Assembly (NCBI GenBank): GCA_020161755.1
Contig: JAIUOS010000003.1
Coordinates: 62,001 to 126,000, forward strand
Reading direction: 5' to 3'
DNA from: Actinomycetota bacterium
GTDB taxonomy: Bacteria > Actinomycetota > Actinomycetes > Propionibacteriales > Propionibacteriaceae
Length of the DNA: 64,000 nt
Made by a program: the position numbers and the translations under genes. Under the pieces are notes generated by a model. The model had not been told where the DNA came from. It saw only the letters and a list, made by a program, of their open reading frames with translations, and did no database searches. Shown here piece by piece: positions 27,526 through 31,742 of this stretch (the stretch's first letter is position 1; every line of letters starts with the position of its first letter).

Positions 27526-27879
27526 CGTGATCCCTTTCCTCGCGCTCATCTCACCACAACCGGCGCCTCCGCGGACGCCGTATGCGGGATTTGTCCCCAT
27601 AAACGATGACACCGCTCCGGATCCGCTCGAAAAGGTGTCAACAGCAAGATTGTCGCCGGTTCTGGGGACACACAAATCCGGACTTGACGTCGCCCATTCC
27701 GCTCCGCTCGCGACGGCATCATTCCTAGCCAACTGCAGTTCTGGAAACCGCGGGATTCGACACTTGGCGCACCGCCGTTCCTTCGAGTTTCGTGGACCAC
27801 GGATTGTCGCGAGATGTGGCTATACGTTTCCCTCGTCGGCCATTCCCGGCCGCACACATCTATCCAAGGAGAATCGACC
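27526..27879. promoter_or_regulatory. Intergenic region with nested inverted repeats, between response regulator and secreted protein
   Basis: A 354-base gap that is clearly less GC-rich than the rest of the window. It contains an outer imperfect inverted repeat (27587-27599 with 27663-27679), an inner perfect one (TGACACC 27607-27613 with GGTGTCA 27634-27640) and a central palindrome CGGATCCG (27618-27625). A TTGACA-like -35 for the minus strand lies in the inner arm, but no clear -10 follows. TATACG at 27821-27826 could be a -10 for the secreted-protein gene, with no good -35. Confidence 0.45.
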
Positions 27880-28704
27880 ATGAAGCTCAAGGCAATCGTG
27901 AACCTGGCGATCGGCGTTGCACTGGCTGCCGGGGTCGGCACGCTGGCCGCACCGCCGGCGCAGGCGGTAGCGCGCGACGGCGTCTGTGAGGCGGGGGAGT
28001 TCTGCTACTACTACAACACCGGGCCGGCTGGATCGGTGTCCGATTTCACCACCTCGGTGTCGGATTACGGCACCAACACCGCGACCTGCTACGTCTTCAA
28101 GGGCGCCGGTGCGGGCCAGGGCCAGTGCATCAAGAACAACGCGGCCGCCGTGAAGAACCTCAGCGGCCAGACTGTCCGGATCTACTACAACAGCGGCTAC
28201 AACGCCAGCTACGCCTCGCTCGACATCGCCCCCGGCGAGACCCGGAACCTGCAGGGCACGGCGTTGTACAACAACAATGCCTCCCATCAGTTCCTGGGCT
28301 CGACCCCGCCGGCGGTCGCCGATGCCGTCACCCGGGCAAAGTCCTGGACCGCAGTCAAGGTGCCTTACAGCATGACGAGCTGGTACGCGAACCAGTACGG
28401 CAGCTACCGGCAGGACTGCTCCGGATACGTCTCGATGATCTGGAACCTGGGCTACAGCACGACCACGGATCAGATGCCCAAGATCGCGCATCCCATCGCC
28501 AAGTCCGACCTGCGTGCGGGCGACGTCCTGCTCAACACCGCTGCCGGTGCTAGCGGCCACGTGCTGATGTTCGACTCGTGGGCGGACGCTGCGCACACCA
28601 AGTACAACGCGTACGAGCAGCACAAGCCGTCCACCATCTACCGGGTCGTTCCTTACCCCTACTACTCGGGCTACGGGACGTTCACGCCGTACCGCAAGAA
28701 CTGA
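27880..28704 (+). CDS. Secreted protein: I36-like (beta/gamma-crystallin-type) domain plus NlpC/P60-type domain
   Basis: A 274-residue exported protein. The signal peptide runs to about residue 29 (MKLKAIVNLAIGVALAAG...PPAQA). Residues ~34-130 look like a peptidase-inhibitor I36 domain (GVCEAGEFCYYYN, with later Cys). Residues ~150-260 look like an NlpC/P60 or amidase-type hydrolase, with C180 in DCSGYVSM and H227 in SGHVLMF. It probably cuts a peptide or amide bond in the cell wall. AAGGAGA precedes the ATG. It may be controlled by the divergent two-component genes. Confidence 0.72.
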   Translation: MKLKAIVNLAIGVALAAGVGTLAAPPAQAVARDGVCEAGEFCYYYNTGPAGSVSDFTTSVSDYGTNTATCYVFKGAGAGQGQCIKNNAAAVKNLSGQTVRIYYNSGYNASYASLDIAPGETRNLQGTALYNNNASHQFLGSTPPAVADAVTRAKSWTAVKVPYSMTSWYANQYGSYRQDCSGYVSMIWNLGYSTTTDQMPKIAHPIAKSDLRAGDVLLNTAAGASGHVLMFDSWADAAHTKYNAYEQHKPSTIYRVVPYPYYSGYGTFTPYRKN

Positions 28705-28751: not shown

Positions 28752-30278
28752 TCAGTCGCGAAAGACGTCGATCCGGGCGCCGAGGGCGTTCAGCCGGTTG
28801 GGCAGGTCCTCGTAGCCGCGGTTGATCACGTAGACGTCCCGCAGCACGCTGGTGCCGCGCGCGGCGAGGGCCGCGAGCAGCAGGCAGACCGCCGGACGCA
28901 GCGCCTGCGGGCAGATCAGCTCCTGGCCACGCCAGCGGGTGGGCCCGGTGACCACGATCCGGTGCGGATCGAGCAGCTGGACGTCCGCGCCGAGCTTGTT
29001 CAACTCGACCAGGTGGATGGCCCGGTTCTCGTACACCCAGTCGTGGATCATCGTCCGGCCCTCGGCCACCGCGGCGATCACGGCGAAAAACGGGAGGTTG
29101 TCGATGTTCAGGCCGGGGAACGGCATCGGGTGGATCTTGTCGGCCGCGGCGTGCAGCACCGACGGCTGCACGGTGATGTCCACCAGCCGGGTCTGCCCGT
29201 TGCAGGACCGGTACTCCGGGCTGAGCGAGTACTGGAGTCCCATCTCGGACAGGATCGCCAGCTCGATGTCGAGGAACTCGATCGGCGCCCGCTGGACGGT
29301 CAGCTCCGAGCTGGTCACGATCGCGGCGGTGATCAGGCTCATCGCCTCGATCGGGTCCTCCGAGGGGGAGAACTCGACGTCGGCCTCGATCCGCTCCAAC
29401 CCGTGGACGGTGAGCGTCGTGGTGCCGATGCCCTCGATCTGCACGCCCAGCTGCTCCAGGAAGAAGCAGACGTCCTGCACCATGTAGTTGCTGGACGCGT
29501 TGCGGATCTCGGTGCGCCCGGGGAACTGCGCGGCGGCCATCAGCACGTTCTCGGTGACCGTGTCGCCACGCTCGGTGAGGGTGATCCGGCGATCCGCCTC
29601 GGCGGTGGGGTGCACCTCGGCATGGTAGAGACCCTGCGTGGTGCGGACGGTGAGCCCGAAGTGACGCAGCGCCTGCAGGTGCGGGGTGACGGTGCGGGCG
29701 CCGAGGTTGCAGCCGCCGGCGTACGGCAGGTCGAAGGCGTCCTCCGAGTGCAGCAGCGGGCCGAGGAACATGATGATCGAACGGGTGCGGCGGGCCGCGT
29801 CCACGTCCATCTCCGGCAGGTCGAGCCGCGCCGGACGGATCAGTTCGAGCTCGGTCTTGTCCTGCGACCAGGTGGCGCGCACGCCCACGCTGGTCAGCAC
29901 CTCGAGGATCCGGTTGACCTCCTCGATCTGCGCGATGCCGCGCAGCACCGTCCGGCCGTGGTTGATCAGGGACGCGCACAGCAGCGCCACCGCGGCGTTC
30001 TTCGACGACCGCACCGCGATCGACCCGTGCAGCTGCACCGGGCCGTGGATGCGCAGGTGCGTCGGCCCGCCGGGGCCGGCGGTGATCAGCGGGGAGTCCA
30101 GCGCGCCGGCGATCCGGTTGATCATCTCCAGGCTCAGGTTCTGCCCGCCGGACTCGATCCGGTGCACCGCGCTCTGCGAGGTGCCCAGGACGTCCGCGAG
30201 CTCCTGCTGGGTGAGGCCCCGCTGCTTGCGCGCATCGCGGATCAGGGTGCCGATGCTGCTCGGAAGTAGGTCTGCCAC
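28752..30278 (-). CDS. XRE-type HTH fused to UDP-N-acetylglucosamine 1-carboxyvinyltransferase (MurA-like)
   Basis: A 508-residue fusion. Residues ~8-63 form an XRE-type helix-turn-helix ([20 protein letters not shown], then [16 protein letters not shown]). Residues 75-508 follow EPSP-synthase/MurA, which adds enolpyruvate to UDP-GlcNAc in peptidoglycan synthesis. Catalytic Cys is kept as C190 in AGGCNLGAR, and [20 protein letters not shown] ends the protein in MurA fashion. Such fusions occur in other actinobacteria; whether this is the main MurA or a regulatory paralogue cannot be told here. GTG start, divergent from lpd. Confidence 0.85.
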
Positions 30279-30344
30279 CCGTGCACCTTATCTCACATGG
30301 GATATGAGCTCGAACCGGCGTCGGCGTCGGTTAAGGTGACCACC

Positions 30345-31742
30345 ATGACCCAACACTTCGATGTCGTCGTTCTCGGAGCCGGTCCAGGGGGGTACGTCGC
30401 GGCGATTCGCGCGGCCCAGCTGGGCAAGAGTGTCGCTGTCATCGAGAAGCAGTGGTGGGGCGGTGTGTGCCTCAACGTCGGGTGCATCCCGACCAAGGCC
30501 CTGCTGCGCAACGCCGAGCTCGCGCACATCTTCCACGCCGAGGCCTCGACGTTCGGCATCGAGGGGGAGGTGCGGTTCAACTTCAAGACCGCGTTCGACC
30601 GCAGCCGCTCGGTCTCCGACCGCATGGTGAAGGGCGTCCACTTCCTGATGCGCAAGAACAAGATCACCGAGCTCAACGGCTGGGGCACGTTCGTGGACGC
30701 GAAGACGATCTCGCTCGAGACCGACAACGGCACCGAGATGATCACCTTCGACAACTGCATCATCGCGGTGGGCGCCACCACCAAGATGCTGCCGGGCACG
30801 TCGCGTTCCGAGCGGGTGTTCACCTACGAGGAGCAGATCCTCTCCGACCAGCTGCCGAGCTCGATCGTGATCTGCGGCGCGGGCGCCATCGGCACGGAGT
30901 TCGCCTACGTCCTGGCCAACTACGGCGTGGACGTGACCATCGTGGAGTACTTCGACCGGATGGTCCCGAACGAGGATCCCGAGGTCGCCGCCGAGTTGGC
31001 GAAGGCGTACAAGAAGCTCGGCGTGAAGGTGCTCACCTCCACCAAGGTCGACGGCATCGAGGAGCACTCCGACGGCGTCCGGGTGCGGGTCAGCCCGGCC
31101 GGTGGGGGAGAGGGGCAGGTGCTCGAGGCCGAGCGCGTCCTCCAGTCGCTCGGGTTCGCGCCCCGCACCACCGGCTACGGCCTGGAGAACACCGGCGTCG
31201 CGCTGACCGACCGCGGCGCGATCGCGATCGACGACTACATGCGCACCAACGTGCCCGGCATCTACGCGATCGGCGACGTCACCATGAAGCTGATGCTCGC
31301 CCACACCGCCGAGGCGCAGGGTGTGGTGGCCGCCGAGACCATCGCCGGGGCCGAGACCATGCCGATCAACTACGACATGGTCCCGCGCGCCACGTACTGC
31401 CAGCCGCAGATCGGCTCGTTCGGGTACACCGAGGCGCAGGCGAAGGAGAAGGGCCACGAGGTCAAGGTGGCCAAGTTCCCGTTCAGCGCCAACGGCAAGG
31501 CCCACGGGCTGGGCGACGCCACCGGCTTCGTCAAGGTCGTGGCGGACGCGCAGTACAACGAGATCCTCGGCGCCCACATGATCGGCCCGGACGTGTCCGA
31601 GCTGCTGCCCGAGCTCACGCTCGCCCAGCAGTGGGACCTGACCGCCGATGAGGTCGGACGCAACATCCACGCCCACCCGAGCCTGTCGGAGGCCCTCAAG
31701 GAGGCCGTCGAGGGTATCGCCGGCCACATGATCAACCTCTGA
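30345..31742 (+). CDS. lpd: Dihydrolipoyl dehydrogenase (E3)
   Basis: A 465-residue flavoprotein that reoxidises lipoamide in the 2-oxoacid dehydrogenase and glycine cleavage complexes. FAD motif [18 protein letters not shown], redox pair C42/C47 in [16 protein letters not shown] motif [11 protein letters not shown] and the terminal active-site His-Glu ([12 protein letters not shown]) are all present. ATG at 30345 is preceded by AAGGTG. gcvP and gcvH of the glycine cleavage system, which use the same E3, lie elsewhere in the window. Confidence 0.95.

Follow-up and report, generated by a model that had tools for sequence, protein, structure and literature searches.

We describe a MurA-type enzyme from a member of the Propionibacteriaceae that, in our judgement, quite likely serves both as the housekeeping MurA of the cell and as the repressor of its own gene, acting through one operator. 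The enzyme domain would convert PEP and UDP-GlcNAc into enolpyruvyl-UDP-GlcNAc. The fused XRE domain, probably as a dimer, would bind a single operator, which reads TATCTCA-N4-TGAGATA in most relatives and has N2 spacing in the clade of the window (the whole stretch of 64,000 nucleotides that was analysed). As this operator covers the spacer and the -10 box of the fusion's own, probably leaderless, promoter, the bound protein would block RNA polymerase, and the MurA level would thereby set the rate of its own synthesis; binding of substrate or product may tune the repression. The features of the window are as follows.

28752..30278, minus strand: gene of the XRE-MurA fusion, 508 aa, GTG start
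30087..30257, minus strand: XRE helix-turn-helix (HTH) domain, residues ~8-64, from the HTH_3 match and the helices in the model
30138..30179, minus strand: recognition-helix region, residues 34-47, with Q35, R40, Q46 and N47 kept in 200/200 loci with an operator near the start
28755..30065, minus strand: MurA-type enolpyruvyl transferase domain, residues 72-508, from profile and structure matches
29709..29711, minus strand: codon of Cys190, equivalent to E. coli Cys115 by alignment
30289..30304, no strand: putative operator palindrome TATCTCACATGGGATA, 13 of 14 scored bases fitting TATCTCA-N2-TGAGATA
30285..30290, minus strand: putative -10 box of the fusion gene (TAAGGT, type TANNNT), which shares 2 bases with the operator and lies 6 nt upstream of the start codon
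30345..31742, plus strand: divergent dihydrolipoamide-dehydrogenase-like gene lpd, 465 aa, a neighbour that we regard as lying outside the system

The earlier note had described a MurA-type enzyme with a catalytic Cys190 and an XRE HTH, and both parts of this description were borne out. In Pfam searches, HTH_3 matched residues 13-64 with 55.3 bits (cut-off 23) and EPSP_synthase matched residues 79-496 with 165.9 bits (cut-off 22.8), and Cys190 aligned with E. coli Cys115. The AlphaFold2 model of the fusion has a mean pLDDT of 88.7 and places the HTH helices at residues 6-19, 24-31, 35-42 and 50-60. MurA structures fit the model over residues 72-508 with Z scores of up to 46.6, the value obtained for 1eyn (rmsd 2.0, 413 residues); NikO (Z 41.3) and EPSP synthases (Z ~36) also matched the enzyme part.

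When the upstream sequences of the fusion genes were placed side by side, the palindrome just 5' of the start codon was kept and the flanks differed. At least 11 of the 14 bases of TATCTCA-N2/4-TGAGATA were present within -60 to +12 in 138 of 149 fusion loci, compared to 8 of 2919 windows placed at random in these loci as a control, and the best match upstream of seven canonical murA genes did not exceed 8/14. The N4 spacing occurs in 156 loci and the N2 spacing in 44; the clades differ in this respect, that of the window having the 16-bp N2 form, and a rigid dimer does not predict such a difference. Within the N4 set, 13 of the 14 half-site positions carry 1.1-2.0 bits and the first one 0.5, as against 0.0-0.4 bits at 20 upstream flank positions. 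In 130 of the 138 loci, 10-12 nt separate the end of the palindrome from the fusion start, and in 133 the final TA of the palindrome opens a TANNNT box. Both TANNNT -10 boxes and leaderless transcripts are habitual in actinobacteria. The spacing of palindrome and box to the start codon suggests a leaderless transcript; a protein sitting on the site would cover the -10 region and hence would be expected to repress.

The palindrome lies exactly at 30289-30304, about where the earlier note had placed it; the note had assigned it to the lpd promoter region, and the spacing in 130 of 138 loci attributes it to the fusion's own promoter instead. A related reading has the HTH sitting on the site as an activator, or acting mainly on the divergent lpd. 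In the window, the two divergent starts are indeed only 66 nt apart with the operator between them, and 121 of 229 loci have a divergent lpd, a lower bound, as 82 of the 229 have less than 1000 nt of upstream sequence. We nevertheless regard this reading as very unlikely, because the distance to the fusion start and the overlap with the -10 box are those of a repressor site, lpd was not found in the other 108 loci (with the same reservation about upstream sequence), and loci without the operator retain the -10 box. In the 50 loci listed, the distance of lpd varies between 53 and 1081 nt. Since the operator stays with murA, an effect on lpd, if any, is probably secondary. By its look, the lpd start is also of the leaderless type, with a TAAGGT box 7 nt before the ATG (window 30332-30347).

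No conserved neighbour emerged from a scan of eight flanking ORFs from one Streptomyces and one Nocardioides locus. Four of them matched families (NaeI, TrkH, zinc ribbon, Atg22/MFS), none of which is shared with the window, and four matched no family; the NaeI-type restriction endonuclease gene lies near the fusion in Streptomyces griseofuscus (L157:7762-9345). In the window, the ORF at 27814-28704, convergent with the fusion gene, encodes a protein with a peptidase-inhibitor I36 domain and no NCBIfam match, whose C-terminal part resembles a wall amidase by eye.

Preferring repression of the fusion's own promoter, we turn to the link between the palindrome and the HTH. Judged by comparative genomics, the fused HTH very probably binds DNA, and the palindrome at 30289-30304 is very probably its site, in line with the binding that the earlier note had suggested. 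Among 229 loci (215 distinct proteins), 200 have an operator near the start and all of Q35, R40, Q46 and N47, 25 have lost the operator together with three or four of these residues, and 4 have no site near the start, keep the four residues and carry an 11/14 site ending at -52 to -89. An operator kept with the residues lost occurs in none of the 229. Counted as distinct proteins (n = 215), 190 keep both, 21 have lost both, 4 have the upstream site, and none has a site with lost residues. The threshold for a site near the start was 11/14 in the scan of 149 loci and 10/14 in the count of 229, which adds L032 and L191. L087, with a frame broken near the start, is not counted; on inspection by eye, it retains an intact HTH and part of the palindrome. 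For L022 and L030, the entries L084 and L083 of the same genes were used instead.

In the lineages that lack the site, the recognition helix has changed, for example from QSAVNRIE-G-QN to SEIVNDLE-G-RE in a Micropruina, and the enzyme has lost only 0-3% of 215 strongly conserved positions, the frame-broken L074 apart. All 25 decayed loci, and 184 of 204 intact ones, have a TANNNT box at a distance of 5-9 nt from the start (background 9/5000); thus, the promoter stays while the operator goes. A further 80 loci of the family, 72 of which add new proteins, agree with the co-loss. At 25 HTH positions that had been fixed before these loci were added (the four key residues were picked after the decayed loci had been seen), the new proteins show 0-6 losses if the site lies near the start (57 proteins), 8-11 if it is gone (12), and none if it lies upstream (3).

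The loci are related by descent, and on a tree of 181 rows parsimony gave only seven operator changes and four HTH changes. In four well-supported operator contrasts, the HTH changed in the same direction in two and showed no difference in two; a sign test on four contrasts cannot reach 0.05. The tree includes four of the named Streptomyces and is without L028, L096, L085 and those enzyme rows that are short or identical; a tree of 113 rows is additionally without L074. The agreement between operator and HTH is strong, if no proof, and about four independent HTH losses appear to lie behind it.

Two further observations concern the unusual loci. In the genera g4 and g79, an operator-like site lies further upstream (best ends -32 to -98; L083, L177, L178, L179, L185, L195, L200, L202, L204), with a leader that contains a ribosome-site-like GAAAGGA. 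The decayed loci (e.g., L088, L089, L093, L136, L226) keep the changed HTH at approximately full length and without deletion, which hints at a second, structural role of the domain.

The site is nearly unique in the genomes. In the own genome of the window, a scan with up to two mismatches returned the fusion-promoter site and one other, so no wide regulon was seen at this level. With up to one mismatch to the N4 form, a scan of 148 genomes of the class located the site at the fusion promoter in 42 of the 49 that carry the fusion. Three further sites lie elsewhere in fusion genomes, and seven occur in 6 of the 99 genomes without the fusion; a backward control pattern occurred once. These counts were tallied by hand against the presence of the fusion. 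Six of the seven fusion genomes missed by the N4 scan, including the own N2 genome, score 11 to 13/14 at the promoter, and the seventh, G112, has lost the site.

These data also bear on the possibility that the palindrome belongs to another regulator and that the fused HTH is only structural. The near full-length HTH of the 25 decayed loci would be compatible with it, and other regulators have been reported or predicted for a gene of Streptomyces coelicolor. SCO5998 (MurA2), one of two MurA enzymes of S. coelicolor, is a neighbour of acnA, and an iron box for DmdR1 is predicted between the two genes (PMC12161575); its promoter is reported to be SigB-dependent (PMC8346170). SCO5998 probably falls into the same orthologous group as the fusion, the fusions of named Streptomyces showing 66-68% identity. 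The SigB dependence and the predicted DmdR1 site at this probable orthologue thus suggest that other regulators may act there. However, the site tracks the fusion gene, being nearly absent from genomes without it, and it is missing where the recognition residues of the fused domain have changed, which makes a foreign regulator with a purely structural HTH very unlikely.

We therefore retain the fused HTH as the candidate repressor and consider the enzyme to which it is joined. The fusion has the fold and the catalytic residues of E. coli-type MurA, with 25-29% identity to the listed MurA chains, and differs by the N-terminal XRE domain and by another loop in place of KVSVGAT. K22, N23, R91, R120, D231, D305, R331, R371 and R397 (E. 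coli numbering) are all kept in the fusion of the window. K22, R91, C115, R120, D305 and R397, which we take to have catalytic roles in MurA, are invariant in 226 of 226 aligned fusions; L028, L096 and L074, being truncated or broken, were left out of this alignment. Since the fusion misses the cut-off of the MurA equivalog TIGR01072 (308 vs. 392.7 bits) and reaches that of the subfamily NF006873 (327.1 bits, cut-off 297), it is filed, on profile scores, as a divergent MurA-type subfamily.

P121, L124, K160, V163 and G164 of E. coli MurA, loop residues with presumed contacts on the uridine side, are replaced in all 226 fusions, with P121, L124 and K160 also variable among the seven canonical MurAs compared. 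V161, V163/G164, E188, E190 and Q307 separate the fusions from most of the seven. At the equivalents of E. coli 161-164, 188, 190 and 307 (residues 236-241, encoded at 29556-29573, 264, 266 and 395 of the fusion described here), the fusions have another set of residues, which hardly varies among them. At the catalytic position (window 29709-29711), all 226 fusions have Cys, and five of the seven canonical actinobacterial MurAs (set L076-L082) have Asp. The Cys of MurA is the target of fosfomycin; thus, lineages that have the fusion as their only MurA would possess a Cys-type enzyme.

A second, canonical murA, for which the earlier note had proposed to look, was not found in the own genome with PF00275 or TIGR01072. 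The PF00275 search returned two genes, the fusion and one gene on contig C7, which score 308 and 31 bits, respectively, with TIGR01072. The C7 gene adjoins an RsgA gene and encodes AroA (TIGR01356, 335.8 bits, cut-off 287.25). As the assembly is 95.9% complete, absence there is no proof by itself, and the family-wide searches agree with it. The fusion is present in 136 of 137 sampled Propionibacteriaceae genomes, the exception being 88% complete and in 320 contigs. Four of the 137, all of one genus (G278, G284, G293, G297), have a canonical-type MurA as well; that of G278 (G278:C1:1028665-1029976) is in two pieces with a stop, and an intact fusion lies elsewhere in the genome. We considered the fusion as a spare MurA copy and rejected this idea, as it is the only MurA-type enzyme found in most Propionibacteriaceae genomes.

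The same holds for another family of this order, which clusters with named Nocardioides and Aeromicrobium in the tree and in which all 14 genomes of the class sample have the fusion alone. The class sample as a whole contains the fusion in 49 of 148 genomes, 18 times alone and 31 times with a further MurA-like gene (hand count); a second MurA-like gene is present in all 14 genomes of one family (f18), whose rows group with named Streptomyces. Named carriers among the best 80 of at least 587 are Microlunatus, Propioniciclava, Acidipropionibacterium, Streptomyces, Kitasatospora, Nonomuraea, Jiangella, Actinopolymorpha and Brachybacterium. A search of 296 genomes of the phylum, covering matches at the E 1e-55 level, revealed no close relative without the HTH: all 16 enzyme-domain matches include it.

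MurB is present in 41 of 42 good relatives and in 54 of 60 relatives overall. Because the fusion is the only MurA found in the fusion-only lineages while MurB is present, it should make the substrate of MurB there, and as the sole candidate found we infer that it catalyses the transfer of enolpyruvyl from PEP to UDP-GlcNAc. An enolpyruvyl transferase for another substrate, with a canonical MurA missed, might be read from the residues peculiar to the fusions (E. coli 161, 163, 164, 188, 190 and 307), from the score below the TIGR01072 cut-off and from the further MurA-like gene in 31 of 49 fusion genomes. This reading is very unlikely, as complete genomes of the two families revealed no other MurA-like protein at E 1e-10, canonical MurAs in other genomes are detected mostly at 1e-30 to 1e-53, and MurB is present.

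A housekeeping MurA with its own repressor domain resembles two groups of known proteins. With XRE-type repressors and antitoxins such as C.AhdI, C.BclI and HipB, which autoregulate, it shares the HTH type and the predicted operator over its own promoter, and differs in that the XRE domain is joined to a complete metabolic enzyme. Like trigger enzymes (PutA, BirA, NadR), it unites a metabolic enzyme and a predicted DNA-binding domain in one protein, as judged from the sequence and the model, and a candidate DNA site in the target promoter emerged from comparative genomics. In contrast to these enzymes, the fusion would act in peptidoglycan precursor synthesis and has an XRE domain. In E. coli, PutA regulates a single target (PMC8249747). 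Trigger enzymes (PMC8249747) and MurA2 of S. coelicolor (PMC12161575) are thus known, and the parts of PMC12161575 and PMC8346170 available to us mention neither an HTH nor autoregulation of SCO5998. Open-licence articles of PubMed Central, as far as accessible, yielded nothing on an HTH-bearing MurA or on MurA autoregulation, which is weak evidence of absence.

The earlier note had suggested that DNA binding could respond to UDP-GlcNAc or PEP. The linker between the domains is poorly conserved (majority residue 69%, vs. 81% for the enzyme and 83% for the HTH), and its variability, together with a pLDDT below 50 at residues 66-69, does not favour a tight relay from the active site to the HTH. 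The variable linker speaks for plain concentration-dependent autorepression rather than a finely coupled sensor. A complex with UDP-MurNAc and PEP is known for other MurAs, and along with UDP-GlcNAc/PEP it is a candidate occupant of the active site. It is conceivable, if rather doubtful, that the sole essential MurA of a large actinobacterial clade is a metabolite-sensing repressor in which active-site occupancy changes HTH binding at one operator. If so, one self-reporting protein would set the entry into peptidoglycan synthesis without a separate regulator.

Work on how MurA supply is matched to wall demand has mostly dealt with protein turnover and sigma factors. In many actinobacterial families, the enzyme of the first committed step of wall synthesis appears to be equipped with a repressor domain of its own and with a cognate operator that is almost unique in the genome. 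The data also indicate that the sole MurA of two families departs from the textbook MurA in a loop close to the nucleotide, which matters for inhibitors of this drug target.
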